In this document: piece after piece, positions 51,368-61,640 of the stretch
Position numbering within the stretch: position 1 is the first letter of the stretch
Layout of the letters: every line of letters begins with the position of its first letter
Source of the DNA: an uncultured Ignavibacteriota bacterium
GTDB lineage: Bacteria; Bacteroidota; Ignavibacteria; UBA10030; UBA8401
DNA length: 64,000 nt
Assembly (NCBI GenBank): GCA_903884005.1
Contig: CAISDA010000064.1
Span: forward strand, 124,001 to 188,000
Reading direction: 5' to 3'
Position numbers and translations under genes: made by a program
Notes under the pieces: model-generated
Database searches by the model: none
What the model saw: the letters and a program-made list of their open reading frames with translations, nothing else
What the model was told of the DNA's origin: nothing

Positions 51368-51994
51368 ATGGAAAACGACATGAGTGAATTTGATGTAAAA
51401 GCGAAAACCTGGGATCTCGACCCTGTAAAATCTGAACGGGCAAAAGCAGTCGCCGATGCGATCCGAATTGAGTGTGCGTTGTCAGCTTCCGCCCATGCTT
51501 TTGAATTTGGCTGTGGAACGGGACTGGTGAGCTTCTTCATGCAACCGTACCTGAGTCGAATCATCATGGCTGACAGTTCCCAGGGAATGTTGGACGTCCT
51601 TGGTGATAAGATTCGGAATGCCGGAGTGGAAAATATGTTTCCACTGTATCTTGACCTTACTGTGTCGCCGCCGCCGGATGAAAAATTCGATCTCGTCTAT
51701 ACTCTTCTCACCCTTCACCATGTGGCGGAGACGGAGCCGATGTTCACCGTGTTCCACTCGATGCTAAATGACGACGGATTCTTGTGTATCGCCGACCTCG
51801 ACACTGAAGATGGTTCGTTTCATGGGGACGGTTTCACGGGCCACAACGGTTTCGACAGGAAAGACCTATTGACACAGGCGGAGAAAGCCGGGTTCAAAAA
51901 CATACGATTCAGCACAGTCTTCGAATTTGAACGGACTTTCAATGGGAATGAGAAAAGAGTTTATCCCATCTTCCTCATGACCGCCCAAAAATAA
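51368..51994 (+). CDS. Class I SAM-dependent methyltransferase
   Basis: 208 residues (or 204 from ATG 51380, where MSEFDVKAKTWD begins as in the family). Motif I is HAFEFGCGTGLVSF, then DSSQGMLDVL and DLVYTLLTLHHV. The C-terminal ADLDTEDGSFHGDGF segment is typical of the UbiE/COQ5-like group of small-molecule methylases. Not closely alike to the methyltransferase at 47842. Substrate unknown. Confidence 0.9.
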   Translation: MENDMSEFDVKAKTWDLDPVKSERAKAVADAIRIECALSASAHAFEFGCGTGLVSFFMQPYLSRIIMADSSQGMLDVLGDKIRNAGVENMFPLYLDLTVSPPPDEKFDLVYTLLTLHHVAETEPMFTVFHSMLNDDGFLCIADLDTEDGSFHGDGFTGHNGFDRKDLLTQAEKAGFKNIRFSTVFEFERTFNGNEKRVYPIFLMTAQK

Positions 51995-52221: not shown

Positions 52222-54492
52222 TTAAAATTTGGCGGTAATTCCGACGATCGGCGTGATCCCAAAATCGTATTTCGGGTTGACGGTGATGCCGCTGCTTGTG
52301 TCGGCTTTGTATGAGTAGGAAATGATATTCGACCTGTTGTAGACGTTCCACAGGTCAAGATACGCTGTCATCGACCAACCGAAAAAAATGAATTGTTTAT
52401 CAACACGGATATCGATCTTATGATAGTCGGGATACCGCACCGAGTTCACTTCACCGTCTACGAGATAATACACACCTGCTTTTTTAACGACTCCGATCAC
52501 CGGTGTATATGGATTACCTGATGCAAATTGGAATTTGGCGCCGATCTGCCAGCCTTCGCCAATCTCCATACCGGCAATGAGATTTATGATATGCGGCCTG
52601 TCGTACTCAAAATCGTATTCTGCCAAAGACGAATTGTCTCTACGGCGTGAAACGGAATAACTGTATGATGCGCTGCCGACGAATCCGTTTGTGAATTTTT
52701 TCTGCAGCGAAAATTCAATGCCTCGCGCATATCCCGAACCTGTATTGAGAAGCAGATTGGAACTATCCGGAGCCACGACAAGATTCGATAGATCTTTATG
52801 ATACACCTCTACTGTTGCGCGCGTATCATCGGCGAGCCGATGTTCAATACCGGCCACGTAGTGGACCGCAGTGCTATTTTTAAGCGCAAGATTCCTCGGG
52901 TCGGGCGAGATCTGATAACTCATCGGAGACTGGGCATAGCGCCCCCACGCCAGGTTGAGCGATGTTGATTGCATCACGGCATACGAAATGGCAACTCGGG
53001 GACTCACGCTTGTTTCATTGATCAATGCGAAGCGATCGACACGCAGACCAGCCGAAAGAGTGATCGGTTGTATCGGGTGATACGAAGTCTGAAGATACAC
53101 TCCAGTCTTCGCAGTGAGAGACGGATGAAACGAGATCGTTGTTGCGGGGATCAGCGTTCCGGTTCTCGTTGTATCTTGGGGGGTCCACGAGGTATTTCGC
53201 GAATCGATCGTTTTCGCCATCACACCGACTTTCAACTCGAGGGACGGATTGAACTGATAGGCGAATTCAGACCTGATCGAGAATTCATTCTCCAGTATGT
53301 CGTCGCCTTTGAGTGCCGGATCGGCCTGGGTGCCCGCCTTGGAGGTCCATCCATTTCCGGTAAATGACACTGTCGTGAGGATAAAAGCCTTCTGTGACAC
53401 GAGCGAGCGCCAATTTACGCCGAATGCCGATCCGTAATCATCCCGCGTAAGATAATCGTATTTGCTCATGGCCGACGATTCCTTCGTCGAACCTGCTTTG
53501 TCTATTTGGTCGATATAATAAAAACCGACAAGGCTGATGCGGTTGCGGGCATCGAGGTCGTAGGTGATCTTGCCGACAGCGTCGTAATAACGCGGAGCAG
53601 CCGGCTTGTTCATGATCGAAGTGAGGATGTCAAAAAAACCGCGTCGAACCGAGAATATCATTGAACCATTATTGGAGACGGGACCGTCGACCATAACACC
53701 GAATCCCGCGATATTGGCATTCACATCTGAATTGTAGAGTTCTTTGTTGCCGTCTTTGAGTGACATATCGAACACTGAGGACATCTTGTCGCCGTATTTG
53801 GCAGGGAATCCGCCCGTGAGGAAATCGACTTTTTCAAGAAGGGCCGGATTCACGATGCTGATGATCCCCATGGACTCGCCGGTGCGGGCGAAGTGGATCG
53901 GATTATAGATCTCGATATTATCGAGGAGAGTGAGATTTTCATCGGGGCTGCCGCCGCGAACAATCAACTGTGCACTTTTTCCTCCTGCAGTTGCCACGCC
54001 CGGCATCGACTGCATGACACGAAAAATATCTTCGGCAGAACCTGGCGACCGGCGAATTTCTTCAGGAGAGAGCGTGCGGACACTCACGATATTATCAGAC
54101 GGTTTCGCAAAATAATCCCCTCCAACGTTCACTGCTTCCATCTCAATGGTAGCGGGTTTCATGCCAAATGAGATCGACTGATTTCGCTGGGGGATAACAA
54201 CAACATCGGTGTTGAAAGCATTCTCGTACCCGATCATTGAGGCTTTCAGCTGATATTTCCCGGAAGGGACATTCTTAATGATGTAATAGCCCCGGTCATT
54301 TGTCGATGCACCCAGCGTCGTGCCGGAAATGACGACAGTGGAGCCCGGAAGCGGCTGCTGTGTATGAATGTCTCGTATCTCTCCGGAAACGATACCGGAT
54401 GATTCCTGAGCGCGAAGCGGAGTAACGGTTGCTAAAAAAATGATATAGACAAGCGTGTGAATAAGGACACGTCGAGACGAACGGCGAATCAT
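52222..54492 (-). CDS. TonB-dependent receptor with carboxypeptidase-regulatory domain
   Basis: 756 residues. A signal peptide (ending PLRAQ) is followed by a CarboxypepD-reg-like beta-sandwich (GEIRDIHTQQPLPGSTVVIS) and a plug domain (IVRGGSPDENLTLLDNIEI). A long beta barrel ends at GITPIVGITAKF with the terminal Phe expected for outer-membrane insertion. Such receptors import large or scarce ligands using TonB energy. No SusD partner is adjacent, so a metal chelate or other small ligand is more likely than a glycan. It follows the Trx-TrxR gene on the same strand 87 bases downstream and might be co-transcribed with the peptide cluster. Confidence 0.95.
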   Translation of the reverse strand: MIRRSSRRVLIHTLVYIIFLATVTPLRAQESSGIVSGEIRDIHTQQPLPGSTVVISGTTLGASTNDRGYYIIKNVPSGKYQLKASMIGYENAFNTDVVVIPQRNQSISFGMKPATIEMEAVNVGGDYFAKPSDNIVSVRTLSPEEIRRSPGSAEDIFRVMQSMPGVATAGGKSAQLIVRGGSPDENLTLLDNIEIYNPIHFARTGESMGIISIVNPALLEKVDFLTGGFPAKYGDKMSSVFDMSLKDGNKELYNSDVNANIAGFGVMVDGPVSNNGSMIFSVRRGFFDILTSIMNKPAAPRYYDAVGKITYDLDARNRISLVGFYYIDQIDKAGSTKESSAMSKYDYLTRDDYGSAFGVNWRSLVSQKAFILTTVSFTGNGWTSKAGTQADPALKGDDILENEFSIRSEFAYQFNPSLELKVGVMAKTIDSRNTSWTPQDTTRTGTLIPATTISFHPSLTAKTGVYLQTSYHPIQPITLSAGLRVDRFALINETSVSPRVAISYAVMQSTSLNLAWGRYAQSPMSYQISPDPRNLALKNSTAVHYVAGIEHRLADDTRATVEVYHKDLSNLVVAPDSSNLLLNTGSGYARGIEFSLQKKFTNGFVGSASYSYSVSRRRDNSSLAEYDFEYDRPHIINLIAGMEIGEGWQIGAKFQFASGNPYTPVIGVVKKAGVYYLVDGEVNSVRYPDYHKIDIRVDKQFIFFGWSMTAYLDLWNVYNRSNIISYSYKADTSSGITVNPKYDFGITPIVGITAKF

Positions 54493-54579: not shown

Positions 54580-55875
54580 TTACACTCCGCCCAACTCTTT
54601 AGAGACTGTAATCGCTGCGATCGTGCCATCGGAGACGGCGGTCGTGATCTGTCTGAACGGTTTGCTTGCAACATCGCCGACAGCGTAGATGTCCTTGATA
54701 TTCGTATGCGCCGTCGCATCCGTCTTAATATATCCCCACTGGTCCAATTCAAAGTATTGTTGTACTTCCTCAATATTGGGTGTCATTCCTGCAAAAATGA
54801 AAACGCCGTCGCACTCGATCGTCTCTAAGTCACCTGTTTTCAGGTCCTGAACGATCACTTTTCTGACACTTGTGCCATCCTTCACAAATTCCCGTGGTTC
54901 GTGTTCGAAAATGAATTTTATCTTTGGATTCGCGAAGGCTTTTTCCTGAGCTGTCTTGTTTGCTTGAAGTGTCGCGAATTGGTGGACGACAGTCACCGTG
55001 CGTGCGAATTTTGTGATGAAGAGTGATTCTTCGATCGCGGAGTTGCCGCCCCCGATGACCACGACATCTTTTCCTTCATAATATTTAGCATCGCATGTTG
55101 CGCAATACGAGATGCCTTGTCCCTTATATTCCTTCTCGCCTTTAACGCCTAAAAATCTGGGTGATGAGCCTGTTGCGATGATGATCTTCTTTGCGGTGAT
55201 CGTCTCGAAACCATCAATAACAATAGTTTTCCCGGGAAGGTCGAGTGATGTCACCTCCACCGCTGCACGGAATTCCGCACCCGCTGCTTTTGCCTGCTCC
55301 GCCATGTGGTGCATGAGCATGTAGCCGGAGATCGGTTCCGAGAAACCTGGGTAGTTGCTGACCATATGGGTGACTTTCACCTGGCCGCCTGGCAATTCTT
55401 TATCGATGACGATGGTGTGTAATTTTGCCTGCGCTGTGTAAATGGCAGTCGCAAGGCCGGCCGGACCGGCGCCGAGCACGAGCACGTCGCATTCGGTCGA
55501 TATCTGTTTGACACCTGCGCGCAATGACTCAACTCGTTCTGTGGGCAGCATCGTTTCAAGATTCCGTACGATCTCAGATCTCTTGACCCCGCCTGAAAGT
55601 CGTTCGCCTATGATCTCACCGTTCTTATAGAAAAGGAGCGTAGGGGAGGACGAGACGCCAAGTTTCGACGCAAGGGCCTTATTTTCCTGTCGGAAGATCT
55701 TATAAAAGGCGATGTCATTGCCATAGACTTCACTCAACGGTTCAAATTTTGCCGCGAGCGCTTCGCACGGAGGACATTCTGTTGAGTAAAAATCAACAAC
55801 GGCAAGAGAATCATGCAGCACCGTCGTTTCAAAATCTGCTTCACTGATGTACCGGATTCGATCGTTCGTGCTCAT
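54580..55875 (-). CDS. Thioredoxin-thioredoxin reductase fusion
   Basis: 431 residues. The N-terminal thioredoxin domain (about 1-105) has VVDFYSTECPPCEALA, active site CPPC, and the cis-Pro region SSSPTLLFYKNG. The C-terminal low-molecular-weight thioredoxin reductase (about 125-431) has FAD-binding VLGAGPAGLATAIY, redox-active CATC (SYCATCDAKYY) and NADPH-binding VIGGGNSAIEES. The order is Trx then TrxR, opposite to the known mycobacterial fusion. Its ATG overlaps the stop of the radical SAM gene by ATGA. This suggests a dedicated reductant for cysteine chemistry on the peptide encoded upstream. Confidence 0.94.
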   Translation of the reverse strand: MSTNDRIRYISEADFETTVLHDSLAVVDFYSTECPPCEALAAKFEPLSEVYGNDIAFYKIFRQENKALASKLGVSSSPTLLFYKNGEIIGERLSGGVKRSEIVRNLETMLPTERVESLRAGVKQISTECDVLVLGAGPAGLATAIYTAQAKLHTIVIDKELPGGQVKVTHMVSNYPGFSEPISGYMLMHHMAEQAKAAGAEFRAAVEVTSLDLPGKTIVIDGFETITAKKIIIATGSSPRFLGVKGEKEYKGQGISYCATCDAKYYEGKDVVVIGGGNSAIEESLFITKFARTVTVVHQFATLQANKTAQEKAFANPKIKFIFEHEPREFVKDGTSVRKVIVQDLKTGDLETIECDGVFIFAGMTPNIEEVQQYFELDQWGYIKTDATAHTNIKDIYAVGDVASKPFRQITTAVSDGTIAAITVSKELGGV

Positions 55876-57185
55876 TCCAGCTCCTTCACAAAATATGTTG
55901 AAATACCTAATTCAAGTAATTCTTTTACAGGACGGCAATCGGGTGAATTGATGGCCCCGGTTCTATTGTAGGCAACCGAGGCGCAGCCGCCGCCGCATGC
56001 GAGACGCAGATTGCATGATGTGCATTCTTTTATTGATGTTACATCCCGCTCTTCCCATTGCTCGATCAATTCGGATTTTTTCGTTGCAGTCGGATAATAC
56101 GTGCCAAGCGCTTCTTCTTTTTTTCCCACTGTCGCCGTGCAGGAGTAAATGCTTCCTGTATAATCGAACGCCCATTCAGTTTTGGTCCCGGGACATGAAT
56201 CGTAGAGAGGGCTGGGAAGCGAGCCGTTTTCAAACAAAAATTTTGAAATAGAAAACGCGGGTTTGTGAAATTGGAGAATCTCGGGATGCCGCTGTATGAG
56301 ATTATAGAGCTCCTGGTACATCTCTATCCGCGTCAGCAGCTTTCCTTGGTCTGTTTGGCAATAATGGAGCTCGTAGTTGCGTCCCAGCTGTGTTTTAAAT
56401 TTTTGATGTTTCGTCCATCCTTTTTCGATCGCAAAACGGGCCAGGTCTGTGATGCCGGCGAGATTTTGACGGTCGACGACGACTCGGAGATTGATGGTGA
56501 TTCCGGCTTCAAGCGCCCGATCGATACCGAGTGCTATCTGCTGAAATGTTGAACCGCCGCCTTTCAATGGCCTTCGCAGATCATGTATCTGTTCTGTGCC
56601 ATCCAATGTGACCTGTACTTCTCGAATCTTATATGTCTTCAGCAGATCAACGTAGTCATGCAGTGAATATCCGTTCGTGACAAAGGCCGTTTCAAGGCCG
56701 GCTTCTTTTGCTTTGTCGAGCAGACGGCGAACGACCGTTTTGTACATTTCACCGGGGAGGAGCGGCTCACCGCCGAAGACTGTGATATATTTTTTCCGTC
56801 CGGCAAATTCCCGATCGATATATGCATAGAACGAATTGATGAGTTCATTGCTCGGAGTCGTGTGGAGATTCGAATATCCCTCCTGGTAACAATACGTACA
56901 GGAAAAATTGCACGAATACCACGGGACGAAGAAGAGCTGGATCTCATCCTTGTCGCGCGCGTCGATGAAATCGGCATACCGTTTCCGGAAGAGACGGGTT
57001 TCTTCGGCCTCATCGCAGAGATAGCCTTTTTCTGTGAATTCGCCGGTGTTCGAGATCCGCTGATCGATCACTTCCTGAGCCTGTTCCGCTGAAAGGATAT
57101 CGGCATTGCCGGTGAGCAGGTTGACGATAAAATATTCGTCTGAATCGGCAATGCGCGAAAAGATGTTATGTTTTGAAAGTGTCAT
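55872..57185 (-). CDS. Radical SAM/SPASM peptide maturase-like enzyme
   Basis: 437 residues. The 4Fe-4S radical SAM motif CX3CX2C is FSCTYCYQEGY preceded by YSCN (near residue 94). FGGEPLLPGEM follows as the GGE motif. The C-terminal SPASM region has YSCTATVG, then CTSCNLRLACGGGCAS and a final Cys in SPDCRP, for auxiliary clusters. SPASM enzymes typically modify ribosomal peptides, forming thioether, C-C or epimerised products, or activate sulfatases. No sulfatase is near, while a 31-residue Cys peptide lies just upstream. No good ribosome site precedes its ATG, whereas the peptide has a perfect one, as expected for substrate excess. Confidence 0.93.
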   Translation of the reverse strand: MTLSKHNIFSRIADSDEYFIVNLLTGNADILSAEQAQEVIDQRISNTGEFTEKGYLCDEAEETRLFRKRYADFIDARDKDEIQLFFVPWYSCNFSCTYCYQEGYSNLHTTPSNELINSFYAYIDREFAGRKKYITVFGGEPLLPGEMYKTVVRRLLDKAKEAGLETAFVTNGYSLHDYVDLLKTYKIREVQVTLDGTEQIHDLRRPLKGGGSTFQQIALGIDRALEAGITINLRVVVDRQNLAGITDLARFAIEKGWTKHQKFKTQLGRNYELHYCQTDQGKLLTRIEMYQELYNLIQRHPEILQFHKPAFSISKFLFENGSLPSPLYDSCPGTKTEWAFDYTGSIYSCTATVGKKEEALGTYYPTATKKSELIEQWEERDVTSIKECTSCNLRLACGGGCASVAYNRTGAINSPDCRPVKELLELGISTYFVKELE

Positions 57186-57238
57186 AAGAGAGAGTGAAGA
57201 GAAAGCAAAGCCTTACGTCAAGGAAAGTATTGTGTTAG

Positions 57239-57334
57239 TTAATCGTGGCAGCCTGCTGTGTTGCTTGATGTTTTAGCACAGCATTGTGCCTCTGTTTGTG
57301 CTTTTTTAGTTGTTTTCTTGATGAGTGATTTCAT
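57239..57334 (-). CDS. Small Cys-containing peptide, candidate RiPP precursor
   Basis: 31 codons from ATG 57334 to TAA at 57239. AAAGGAGG lies five bases upstream, the best ribosome site in this cluster. The peptide starts MKSLIKKTTKKAQTEAQ, a basic leader-like half, and ends in a core with a CC pair at residues 18-19 and a third Cys at 29 (NTAGCHD at the end). It sits 53 bases before the radical SAM/SPASM gene and 30 after the methyltransferase, all on one strand. Position, size, leader/core shape and ribosome site fit a modified-peptide precursor. No signal peptide. I know no named family for it. Confidence 0.7.
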   Translation of the reverse strand: MKSLIKKTTKKAQTEAQCCAKTSSNTAGCHD

Positions 57335-57364
57335 GGATCCTCCTTTCGTAAATGGTCGGATGTG

Positions 57365-58009
57365 CTACGATCCGCAATTGCAAGTTGATGTATGTCCTGA
57401 AACGGTAAAACTTGAAACGGTGATCTTTCCTTTTTCGTAGGGCTTGCTCTCTTCAACAATCGCAATGTCTTTGAATCCGGTCTCCTGAAGGATCGTCATG
57501 TACTCATCCTTCGTGATAGCGCCGGCCCAGCATTCGGCAACAGCGGCAGGATCGTTTGCATATTCGGCTGGCACCGGAGCTGAAGAATATATATCGCTCA
57601 CCACGAACCGTCCGCCTTTTTTAAGCACGCGTTTGATTTCGGCCCACACACGGCGCTTATCCTGCGCATGATTGATCGTGCAGTTTGAGATGATAAGGTC
57701 AGCGGTGCGCGATTCGAGCTGTATCTGCTCGAGTTCAGAGCGGACGAGACGGACGTTCGTGTAGCCGAATTTTTCAATATTCTTCGCAGCTTTTGCAAGC
57801 ATTCCATCGGAGACATCCACGCCATACACGAGCCCTTCTTCACCGACCGCTTCCCGGAGCCGTATCAGATCGCTGCCCTTGCCGCAGCCTAAATCTATAC
57901 ACACTTCTCCCGGTTTGGGCTCACTCAAATTGATTGCACCGCCGCAGGATAAGCAGCATTCAGTTTCTGCAAGCGTGCTATAGCGTTTTTCTATCTCAAT
58001 CGTATTCAT
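57365..58009 (-). CDS. ArsM-like SAM-dependent methyltransferase
   Basis: 214 residues. Motif I is EVCIDLGCGKGSDLI, with VYGVDVSDGML and IISNCTINHAQDK, as in arsenite methyltransferases (ArsM). The Cys in AECWAGAITKDEY sits where ArsM has one of its arsenic-binding cysteines. The protein also has ECCLSCGG near the N-terminus and ends TCNCGS, so it is unusually Cys-rich at both ends. Either an arsenic (or selenium/sulfur) methylase, or a methylase of the cluster's peptide. It is the first gene of the minus-strand unit. Confidence 0.85.
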   Translation of the reverse strand: MNTIEIEKRYSTLAETECCLSCGGAINLSEPKPGEVCIDLGCGKGSDLIRLREAVGEEGLVYGVDVSDGMLAKAAKNIEKFGYTNVRLVRSELEQIQLESRTADLIISNCTINHAQDKRRVWAEIKRVLKKGGRFVVSDIYSSAPVPAEYANDPAAVAECWAGAITKDEYMTILQETGFKDIAIVEESKPYEKGKITVSSFTVSGHTSTCNCGS

Positions 58010-58447
58010 CGGGGTGGTTTTTTTGGTGGATGGAGTGGTGTAGTGGCACTCTATAGATGGAGTCTCGTCACACTACCGAGTACTATCGAGCTGTGACGAT
58101 TAAAAAATCAGTTTGTTCAGATTGTAAAAGTGTGTCAACTCTGCTCAATTGATGGGTCATGAAGAGTCCGGTGAAAAAAAGGAAAATTCCTGCGATGATG
58201 ATAGTTGTATTCTTCATGATGAATTTTCCTTCTCATGTCGGCTTTGTGTGTATCATTCCGTTATGTGGATGGGATGCAAGGGTACGGGAAAAGATTCATC
58301 TTTTTAAAAAAATGTTCCCATGCGATTTTGTGAACCGAAGTGTATTTCAACGCATCCCAAAGGAAAGAAACAGACACTGTTTCTGAAAACTCGTGGCTAT
58401 GGGAATAATACGTTGTTGACAAAATCTTACTGAAGGTGTATTCCTTG
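58010..58447. other. Divergent intergenic region
   Basis: 438 bases between the divergent methyltransferase and flavoprotein genes, so promoters for both must lie here. TTGACA-like boxes occur on both strands (near 58130 on minus, near 58413 on plus), but I cannot pair them with convincing -10 elements. A 75-codon frame at 58159-58386 has no domain, good start or codon pattern and is probably not a gene. Confidence 0.4.
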
Positions 58448-59614
58448 ATGAAAAAAGCATTGGTTCTTGGCGGTGGGTTTGCCGGAGTGCAAGCGGCTAT
58501 CGACTTGCAGAAAACGAAAATATTTGACGTCACTTTGATGTCTGACAGAGACTACCTGTTTCTGTACCCGACATCGATATGGATCCCGACCCGAGAATCC
58601 ACATTTGACAATGCAAAAATATCCCTTCGCGACATTCAGAAAGCCAACGGCTTCAGGCTCGTCATCGATATGGTGAAAGAGATACGCACATATGAACAGA
58701 TTGTTATTGGTGGAACCGGTACGCTCCACTATGATTTTCTCGTAATCGGGATAGGGGCGGGGAAGATGATGCCCGCAGGACATGAACACACACTGTCGAT
58801 ATGCGGCAGCCCCGAATCATCGCTTGCGATCAGAGACAGGCTTGACGCCCTGATCGAGCGCGGTGCGGGGTCGATCGCCGTGGGGTTCGGCGGCAACCCG
58901 AAGGACGTGTCGGCCGTGCGGGGCGGACCGGCATTCGAGTTGATGTTTAACATTGAGACAATGCTGAAGAAGAAGAAAATCCGAGACAAGTTCACGCTGA
59001 CATTTTTTGCTCCAATGGCTGAGCCGGGCGCACGGATGGGAAAGAAAGCGTTGTCGATGATCGACACTATGTTCACAACCTCCGGGATTCTTCATCGTTA
59101 CGGGAAAAAGATACAGGCATTTACGCCGTTAGGTGTGACATTCGAGGATGGTTCGCAGCTCGATGCCGACCTTGTTGTATTTATTGCGGGTGCTGCAGGA
59201 CCTTCAGTGTTCCGCAGTTCAGACCTTCATTTGAACGATGCCGGATTTATAAAAATCGACGATCACTGTCTTGTTGAAGGCACGACGAATGTCTATGCCG
59301 TTGGTGACAGCGCCGCAATCGAAGGACCGGGGTGGAGGGCGAAGCAGGGACACACTGCCGAGGTCATGGCGCGTGTTGCTGTGTTTAATATCGCGGCGAT
59401 TGAACGGCATGAAACTGAACGAAAAGGATACAAGGAACATCTCTCGATCATGTGCATCATGGATACGGGAAACGGGGCTGCATTCGTGTATCGGGATTCC
59501 ACGAAAAATTTTGTGATCCCTTTGCCCGTCATCGGACATTGGTTGAAACAAGCATGGGGAACCTACACAAAATTAACAAAAACCGGCCGTATGCCGCGAA
59601 TACCAGGAGTATAA
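58448..59614 (+). CDS. SQR-like NAD(P)/FAD-dependent oxidoreductase
   Basis: 388 residues. The FAD-binding start is KALVLGGGFAGVQAA, with the second Rossmann region FLVIGIGAGKMM and the flavin-binding VYAVGDSAAIEGPG near residue 285. The C-terminal tail KQAWGTYTKLTKTGRMPRIP is typical of sulfide:quinone oxidoreductase-like flavoproteins. Cys residues are present at about 118 (LSICGS) and 336 (IMCIMDTG), but whether they form the catalytic set needs alignment. May oxidise sulfide or persulfide to the quinone pool at the membrane. It lies divergent to the peptide cluster and 5 bases before the DUF1847 gene. Confidence 0.88.
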   Translation: MKKALVLGGGFAGVQAAIDLQKTKIFDVTLMSDRDYLFLYPTSIWIPTRESTFDNAKISLRDIQKANGFRLVIDMVKEIRTYEQIVIGGTGTLHYDFLVIGIGAGKMMPAGHEHTLSICGSPESSLAIRDRLDALIERGAGSIAVGFGGNPKDVSAVRGGPAFELMFNIETMLKKKKIRDKFTLTFFAPMAEPGARMGKKALSMIDTMFTTSGILHRYGKKIQAFTPLGVTFEDGSQLDADLVVFIAGAAGPSVFRSSDLHLNDAGFIKIDDHCLVEGTTNVYAVGDSAAIEGPGWRAKQGHTAEVMARVAVFNIAAIERHETERKGYKEHLSIMCIMDTGNGAAFVYRDSTKNFVIPLPVIGHWLKQAWGTYTKLTKTGRMPRIPGV

Positions 59615-59619
59615 CCATT

Positions 59620-60207
59620 ATGGACTGTACACATTGCACACCCAAAACATGTAAAAATTTAGACAGTTGCGGGGCTGAACGTTATGATGAGGCGGCCGTT
59701 GAAGAAGCCTATCGGGACCCGTCGGCACAAGCTATTGTTCAAGCCGCAGCCGCGCTTGTCGACGGCGGTAAAGCCGGCACAGTGTCTAGGCTGCGGGAGA
59801 TCATAGAGTTTGCCCAGTCGATGAAGTATAAAAAGATCGGACTCGCATATTGTTATGGAATGGAACGTGACGCCGAGTCAGTGGGTGCGATCTTCCGCGA
59901 GCATGGGATGCGTTTGATGGGGGTGGCGTGCACTGTCGGCGGTGTCGCACAGGATGATGTGAACCAGTCGAGCAGCACTCATACGGTCTCGTGCAACCCT
60001 ATCGGCCAGGCAGAACAATTCAATGCAGAGGGAGCGGACCTTGTGATTCTCATGGGGATCTGTATGGGGCATGACATTCTGCTGCAGCGAAAACTACAGT
60101 GCGATGTCACGACATTCGTCGTTAAGGACAGGGTGTTTGCCAACGATCCGTTGAGGATCTTGCGCGGTTATCCAGAGGCCGATCCATTGTGCGTTAAAGA
60201 TGTGTAA
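59620..60207 (+). CDS. DUF1847 cysteine-rich protein
   Basis: 195 residues. The start MDCTHCTPKTCKNLDSC gives four Cys, and later Cys occur in AYCYGMERD, GVACTVGG, SCNPIGQ, GICMGHD and LQCDV. This pattern is the DUF1847 family, thought to bind metal or Fe-S clusters; biochemistry unknown. It appears operonic with the upstream flavoprotein (5-base gap). Together the pair looks like a redox unit for sulfur or metalloid compounds, by inference. Confidence 0.88.
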   Translation: MDCTHCTPKTCKNLDSCGAERYDEAAVEEAYRDPSAQAIVQAAAALVDGGKAGTVSRLREIIEFAQSMKYKKIGLAYCYGMERDAESVGAIFREHGMRLMGVACTVGGVAQDDVNQSSSTHTVSCNPIGQAEQFNAEGADLVILMGICMGHDILLQRKLQCDVTTFVVKDRVFANDPLRILRGYPEADPLCVKDV

Positions 60208-60264: not shown

Positions 60265-61640
60265 TTGCATGTTGTGCAGCTCTCTGAAAAAGTTGAGAAG
60301 TTGGAAGCACGCAAACAAGAACTCGAATCACAGAAAGACAAAGACAGCCACAACAGTCATAAACCACCATCGAGTGATGGATTGAAGCGTGTGATTAAAC
60401 CCACCCGAGTCAAGAGCAACAAGACCTCCGGCGGCCAACAAGGTCACGAAGGTTCTACGCTTGCGATGGTCGAAACGCCTGACCATATTGTCCTTCACCC
60501 GGTGACCGGGTGTAAAAAGTGTGGACACAATCTGACTCGTGTGCGAGCGCGTACCATTCGCCATCAGGTCGCGGATATTCCACCGGTCGAGATCGAGGTC
60601 ATTGAACACCAGGCCGAACTCAAAGAATGCCCGAGCTGCGGAACGACTACGATCGCACTATTTCCTGAGGGTGCAACAAAAGCCGTCCAGTATGGTCCGC
60701 ATATCAAAGCAGTGACGCTCCTGTTAATGTATTATCAATTGATCCCGAATGAGCGATTATGCGAGGTGTTGAAAGATCTCTATGGATGTGCCATTTCAGA
60801 AGGCACACTGCATAACTGGTCACTTGCACTCCACGAAAAATTCGAAGGCGTCGAACAGTATATAAAAGACCTCATTCGCACGTCCGACGTCATTCATGCC
60901 GTGAAACGGGCATTTATTGCGAAGCGAAGCTCCATTGGCTGCATGTTGCATCAACACCGACACTGACGTATTACGAGATGCATCAGAGGCGCGGACAAGA
61001 AGCAATCGATTATATTGGCATTCTTTCCAATTTCCACGGCACGGTGATCCATGATTGTTGGGGGCCATATTTCAAATACCCGATCAAACATGGACTCTGC
61101 AATGCCCACATTCTTCGCGAACTGATCTTTGCTGCCGAAGAGGACAAGCAACCGTTCGCCAAGAAGATGAAAAAATTATTACTGAAAATTAAGACGGTCG
61201 TCAATCAGGCACGTGTGCACGGGCGTCCCTCATTATCTGTATCGACGCTCCTATCGTATGAAAAACAATACGAGGAATTGCTTCGATTGGGAGATCGCCA
61301 TAACCATCGGACGAAGCGAGTCGCGATCAAACGCGGACGCGTCAAACAAACCAAGACGTTTAATCTGCTGAAGCGACTCCGTCTCTATCGTGATGCGATT
61401 CTTGTGTTCATGTATGATTTTGAAATTCCATTTACCAACAATCTCGGCGAACGCGATATCCGAATGTTCAAAGTGAGACAAAAAATATCAGGTACCTTTC
61501 GCAGCATTCGAGGTGCGGAAATTTTTTGCCGCATCCGCGGATACATTAGCACGGCACGCAAGAACGGCATCCGTGTTTTCACGTCCATTCAAAATGCGCT
61601 CGAAGGAAATCCCCTCACGCCGTTAGCTCAATTTGACTGA
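60265..61640 (+). pseudogene. IS66-type transposase (TnpC), frameshifted
   Basis: The frame from about 60265 encodes the leucine-zipper/KPPSSDG N-terminus and the zf-IS66 domain (KKCGHN, KECPSCG). It reads IRTSDVIHA and then shifts. Adding one base after 60901 restores HADETG, the first catalytic Asp of the DDE triad, and YYEMHQRRGQEAIDY in the frame 60978-61640. The second Asp region (VIHDCWGPYFKY) and the Glu region (NNLGERDIRMFKVRQKISG) are intact there. No tnpA/tnpB accompany it, as in the ISBst12-type subgroup. Terminal inverted repeats could not be found by eye. Inactive unless the indel is a sequencing error. Confidence 0.9.

Follow-up and report, generated by a model that had tools for sequence, protein, structure and literature searches.

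A four-gene cluster for a candidate modified peptide

In a stretch of 64,000 nucleotides from an uncultured Ignavibacteriota bacterium (GenBank acc. no. GCA_903884005.1, contig CAISDA010000064.1, positions 124,001 to 188,000; here called the window), we identified four minus-strand genes at 54580–58009 that probably constitute a dedicated pathway for the maturation of a ribosomally synthesized and post-translationally modified peptide (RiPP). They encode an ArsM-type methyltransferase (MT), a short cysteine peptide, a radical S-adenosylmethionine (SAM) enzyme with a SPASM domain (rSAM), and a fusion of thioredoxin and thioredoxin reductase (Trx-TrxR). The gene set is conserved and co-inherited and its active-site motifs are in place; the peptide would be the substrate of both the rSAM and the MT.

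The first gene of the run (57365–58009) encodes the MT, a class I SAM methyltransferase of 214 aa with a Cys-rich C-terminus (CNCGS), matched in Pfam (Methyltransf_31), NCBIfam, PDB, and Foldseek searches. After a gap of 30 b (57335–57364), which includes the strong Shine-Dalgarno sequence AAAGGAGG (57339–57346), follows the gene for the 31-aa putative precursor peptide MKSLIKKTTKKAQTEAQCCAKTSSNTAGCHD (57239–57334). A second gap of 53 b (57186–57238) separates it from the gene for the rSAM (437 aa, 55872–57185; Pfam Radical_SAM, NCBIfam, Foldseek), whose stop codon overlaps the start codon of the last gene in an ATGA (55872–55875). The latter (54580–55875) encodes one fusion protein of 431 aa, in which a thioredoxin (CPPC, C34/C37) is located N-terminal to a thioredoxin reductase (CATC, C258/C261). 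The original prediction, made from the sequence alone, had described four minus-strand genes in one run with these gaps and this overlap, and its coordinates proved exact. Its assignments held as well: the SPASM radical SAM enzyme carries the full CX3CX2C and SPASM motifs, the Trx-TrxR fusion was recovered with its Pfam domains and both CXXC pairs, and the ArsM-like Cys-rich methylase was strengthened, as all three As(III)-binding cysteines are kept.

Conservation of the peptide

All 80 collected copies of the peptide end with AQCCAKxSxxxxGCHD, the last residue being a free Asp, and this core is shared unchanged by Bacteroidota, Ignavibacteria, Spirochaetota, and Elusimicrobiota. The start is also conserved (MKSL-like); the middle is variable and Lys-rich. 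In total, 12 core positions (A-Q-C-C-A-K-.-S-....-G-C-H-D) were identical in 80/80 peptides, with H, D, and the other positions forming the unforced part of this agreement, since the pattern used for collecting demanded only AQCCAK.S and GC. A looser search for CC...GC at the 80 loci resulted in the same peptide set and no other version of the core. At the nucleotide level, AQCCAK is encoded by 60 different 18-mers, the third codon positions are free to change, and for A, Q, C, K, G, H, and D all synonymous codons occur; thus, with the peptide core constant despite this variation, selection acts on the protein. Four peptide variants revealed no known family in Pfam or NCBIfam (in NCBIfam even at E = 10). 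A chance open reading frame was ruled out, because conservation, codon degeneracy, and co-occurrence with the rSAM all mark the peptide as more than chance.

Distribution and co-inheritance of the four genes

Scanning an rSAM alignment over 84,980 species genomes yielded 289 relatives, the best 80 of which were kept; their hosts belong to Bacteroidota, Ignavibacteria, Spirochaetota, and Elusimicrobia. Among these best 80 loci, the peptide was found at 77, the MT at 75, and the Trx-TrxR fusion at 78. The three genomes lacking the peptide at the rSAM locus (L045, L088, and L093) harbor it elsewhere beside the MT, so that the peptide is present in 80/80. For L045, both pieces stop at contig edges, and in L088 and L093 the MT and peptide genes are separated from those for rSAM and Trx-TrxR, with all four genes kept in the genome. 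Contig ends, or relocation in L088 and L093, explain every locus at which the MT or Trx-TrxR is absent. Gene order also varies in L022, L028, L030, and L116, where the Trx-TrxR gene lies upstream and all four genes are retained.

Among 100 related genomes, the peptide was matched with strong scores in five, and a search of 150 relatives for the rSAM (E <= 1e-60) identified six genomes, namely these five and one more (G141), which also carries the peptide. The gene order MT, peptide, rSAM is common to all six, with the Trx-TrxR gene of G141 located upstream of the MT gene. The peptide was present in 24/24 rSAM-positive Bacteroidales genomes vs. 1/174 rSAM-negative ones (Fisher p = 5e-30), and in a second independent sample in 5/5 rSAM-positive genomes vs. 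one weak match among 390 rSAM-negative ones. Co-occurrence of the four genes in other genomes, proposed by the original prediction as its check, was observed, and homologous clusters without the peptide frame, which would have spoken against it, did not appear: the peptide was never missing from an rSAM-positive genome. A weak peptide match in genome G183 (E = 0.007) was rejected, covering only the last 15 profile residues inside a 98-aa open frame; in its 3-kb locus we saw no core gene, and the recognizable neighbors were ABC-type transporters.

Pairwise distances of rSAM, MT, and Trx-TrxR correlate at r = 0.85–0.86 (57 loci), and in the rSAM tree sequences of one phylum mostly cluster together, apart from a few changes that might reflect transfer. 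A single-sequence query of IMG/VR for viral carriage revealed no relative.

The radical SAM/SPASM enzyme

The CX3CX2C motif for the radical SAM cluster (C92, C96, C99; 56889–56912) is invariant in an alignment of 20 diverse copies, as are the seven cysteines of the SPASM motif (55935–56195), which is complete in the form CX9-15GX4C...CX2CX5CX3C...C (C331-G344-C349, C388-C391-C397-C401, C417). The enzyme thus has both motifs of a radical SAM/SPASM RiPP maturase and, nearby, a co-inherited peptide as a candidate cognate precursor. Its nearest NCBIfam models are CefB, TIGR04463, Clo7bot, and PapB, with scores far under every cut-off (CefB as the best with 150.5 bits vs. 600, Clo7bot 118.5 vs. 600, PapB 114.8 vs. 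340, SCIFF 80.6 vs. 425). By PDB sequence and Foldseek fold, the closest protein is CteB (5why/5wgg), a thioether-forming maturase. The N-terminus (about residues 1–80) is predicted, in a low-confidence model that matches CteB over its full length, to fold as beta3-alpha3, similar to a RiPP recognition element (RRE); a PqqD domain was not matched by Pfam in the rSAM.

The precursors of the ranthipeptide maturase families (PapB, CefB, Clo7bot, SCIFF) display spaced Cys...Asp/Glu pairs, with a Cys-X3-Asp spacing for PapB. This type of spacing is absent from the core described here (CCAKxS....GCHD), in which Cys19-X3 leads to Ser and Cys29 is followed by H-D.

An anaerobic sulfatase maturase accompanied by an unrelated small open reading frame would share the SPASM fold with the rSAM (Foldseek ranks 8–16), but this explanation is already contradicted and its probability close to nil. 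The score against TIGR03942 amounted to 73.1 bits, far under the cut-off of 349, the peptide accompanies the rSAM in all positive genomes, and no sulfatase family was recognized among the recurrent neighbors. The original prediction had named an alignment with sulfatase maturases, with a sulfatase elsewhere as the conserved partner, as evidence against itself; in view of the low TIGR03942 score, this case did not arise.

The ArsM-type methyltransferase and a possible role of arsenic

In CmArsM, As(III) is bound by C72, C174, and C224 (PMC3877260). These residues align with C22, C110, and C160 of the MT (codons at 57944–57946, 57680–57682, and 57530–57532), all three of which are unchanged in 69 copies. 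C22 belonged to the pattern by which the 69 copies were selected and is also invariant in a 33-row alignment, while C110 and C160 (each 69/69) were not in that pattern. The best PDB sequence matches are CmArsM, and Foldseek ranks 1–13 are all ArsM/AS3MT. The MT therefore has the fold and the three As(III)-binding cysteines of these enzymes, but differs from them in its length, in its constant pairing with a peptide gene, and in an NCBIfam score below the cut-off for arsenite methyltransferases (PRK11873, 184.8 bits vs. 263). The genome of the window also encodes a second, canonical ArsM of 274 aa in a separate arsenic operon together with an ArsC-like protein and ACR3 (L131, 5455–7768, contig C57).

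Based on the retained As(III) triad, the cluster could serve to make an organoarsenical: the peptide thiols would bind As(III), the MT would methylate it on the peptide, the rSAM would add a carbon group or a crosslink, and Trx-TrxR would reduce arsenic and thiols, leading to an arsenic-containing peptide or small molecule. ArsM and radical SAM enzymes are known to act together in making arsinothricin (ArsL/ArsM) and arsenosugars (ArsS/ArsM) (PMC8552651), and the three invariant Cys of the peptide suit As(III). ACR3 was present in 20/24 cluster-positive vs. 84/174 cluster-negative Bacteroidales (p = 0.002), and Sulf_transp showed no such bias in the same genomes (12/24 vs. 78/174), with kinship and genome size uncorrected in these genome-level tests. 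However, ACR3 was unbiased among the relatives of the window (4/6 vs. 88/144), ArsP/ArsR-type genes were located near the cluster in only 3/83 loci and then on the other strand, and the genome already has its own canonical operon. ArsL also differs, being described with a single Fe-S cluster and acting on As(III), in contrast to the SPASM peptide maturase, peptide, and Trx-TrxR seen here. Altogether, the evidence for arsenic is mixed, with a genome-level link in one sample and none in the other, and we regard an organoarsenical product as rather unlikely. More doubtful still is the far-reaching version in which As(III), or antimony or selenium, sits on the three invariant Cys, is methylated on the peptide by the MT, and is fixed by radical chemistry, which would make the product a widespread metalloid-containing RiPP cofactor.

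The Trx-TrxR fusion and the sulfur-related neighborhood

Both Pfam domains of the fusion (Thioredoxin and Pyr_redox_2) scored above the cut-off, and TIGR01292 gave 323.8 bits, just under its cut-off of 343. The CPPC pair of the thioredoxin and the CATC pair of the reductase are invariant in 71/71 fusion copies, the selection of which included CATCD and one CXXC.

A census of neighboring genes covered 83 loci, with families outside the Pfam scan named by eye. Most recurrent were DUF6132 (32 loci), DUF302 (28), DUF1847 (24), SQR-like proteins (18), and Crp-type regulators (17), followed by NapH-like ferredoxins, extra thioredoxins, OsmC, TauE, NifX, Sulf_transp, and HdrC-like proteins. Most of these, e.g., DUF6132, DUF302, DUF1847, SQR-like proteins, and the extra thioredoxins, are proteins of thiol or sulfur redox chemistry or Cys proteins, and in several loci a DUF1847 gene lies between those for rSAM and Trx-TrxR. 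In the window, two such recurrent but non-core genes are located on the plus strand: one for an SQR-like flavoprotein (58436–59614; NCBIfam below cut-off), divergent from the MT gene, and one for a Cys-rich DUF1847 protein (59452–60207), whose start is probably 3' of 59600.

This neighborhood raises the possibility of a sulfur relay, in which the peptide would carry thiol or persulfide sulfur, be S-methylated or crosslinked at some Cys, and be recycled by Trx-TrxR, with a link to sulfide metabolism via SQR-like, DUF302, DUF1847, HdrBC, and TusA/DsrE-like neighbors. Beside the census, an orphan peptide gene in genome G549 (L125, 6296–6394), which adjoins a different methyltransferase gene and genes for HdrC/DsrE/TusA-like proteins, is consistent with such a role. 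Against it, no sulfur gene is constant, the four core genes alone being so, Sulf_transp shows no genome-level bias, and retention of the As triad would be left unexplained. We consider the sulfur relay somewhat unlikely.

Proposed maturation pathway

In the RiPP-type pathway that we favor, the peptide start (MKSL and the Lys-rich stretch) would serve as a leader, and the invariant C-terminal AQCCAKxSxxxxGCHD would be the part modified. Having bound the peptide via its RRE-like N-terminal domain, the rSAM would introduce a bond into the core by radical chemistry; a Cys thioether like those made by CteB and the ranthipeptide maturases is the most likely type. The MT would transfer a methyl group to a soft atom that either belongs to the peptide (a thiol sulfur) or is bound by its three thiols (As(III) or another element of this kind); with regard to bond type and methyl acceptor, these are guesses. 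Trx-TrxR would use NADPH and keep the thiols of peptide and MT reduced. Because there is no regular protease or exporter and the core does not diversify, the product would most likely stay inside the cell as a cofactor-like thiol peptide, acting as a redox carrier or metalloid ligand, rather than be secreted as an antibiotic.

Several points weigh against this proposal. While the conserved gene set and the ever-present peptide uphold the modified-peptide pathway of the original prediction, the modification itself we infer from the observed co-occurrence and conservation. The substrate of the MT might be a free metalloid instead of the peptide. The predicted rSAM model is of low confidence in its SPASM half, and the RRE and fold matches are therefore taken as supportive only. 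Finally, G549 has the peptide with no rSAM match, possibly owing to a gap in the bin.

A secreted, bacteriocin-like RiPP with antimicrobial function would agree with the ranthipeptide/sactipeptide-like maturase and with three related loci (L043, L050, L066), where a MacA/MacB/TolC-like transporter trio lies beside the cluster together with a two-component system. It is nevertheless very unlikely, as the core does not diversify over phyla and no protease, exporter, or immunity gene recurred in the census of 83 loci.

Comparison with known systems

CteB/SCIFF, CefB, TIGR04463, Clo7bot, and PapB resemble the system described here in combining a radical SAM and SPASM enzyme, a small Cys peptide alongside, and an RRE-like N-terminus, the latter being predicted here with low confidence. 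It differs from the CteB/CefB-type maturases, the best PDB and NCBIfam neighbors of the rSAM, in its new invariant core, the free C-terminal Asp, and the ArsM-type MT and Trx-TrxR as partners. Mycofactocin and PQQ are peptide-derived redox cofactors, each with an invariant short peptide and a SPASM enzyme, conserved over phyla and undiversified; in contrast to these, we saw no separate PqqD/MftB-type chaperone and no peptidase in the cluster, and the core is Cys-based. To our knowledge, few RiPP-derived cofactors such as PQQ and mycofactocin are known.

Radical SAM RiPP pathways are known as such, and the combination of the peptide with an ArsM-type MT and Trx-TrxR is new to the searched literature. 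Neither the four-gene set nor a peptide accompanied by an ArsM-type MT, a radical SAM enzyme, and Trx-TrxR was found in the papers searched (which excluded subscription journals and preprints), and NCBIfam revealed neither the peptide nor the gene combination, in agreement with the original prediction, which could name no described system with this set. None of those papers reports radical crosslinking of a peptide together with a methyltransferase of the arsenic type and a Trx-TrxR fusion, the three chemistries that the cluster would combine. The letter-for-letter identity of the peptide core across several phyla, along with three enzymes dedicated to it, suggests a conserved cofactor or metal ligand instead of a variable antibiotic. 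The hosts include Carboxylicivirga linearis FB218, a named isolate in culture, so that the product can be searched for directly.

Further genes adjoining the cluster

A small open reading frame of 44 aa at 58083–58217 of the window had no homolog near 90 other loci. Directly downstream of the cluster, a gene on the minus strand (52222–54492) encodes a TonB-dependent receptor, which may be linked to uptake; L024 and L118 harbor homologs of it close to the cluster (75% and 59% identity, respectively). Another class I methyltransferase is encoded on the plus strand at 51368–51994. Its homologs lie near the cluster in 11/90 loci; in L118 and L082, the homolog is placed between rSAM and Trx-TrxR, and in L125 it adjoins the orphan peptide. 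On the other side of the cluster, the region 60265–61640 (plus strand) displays two overlapping frames of an apparent IS66-like transposase (named by eye), possibly a broken insertion sequence.

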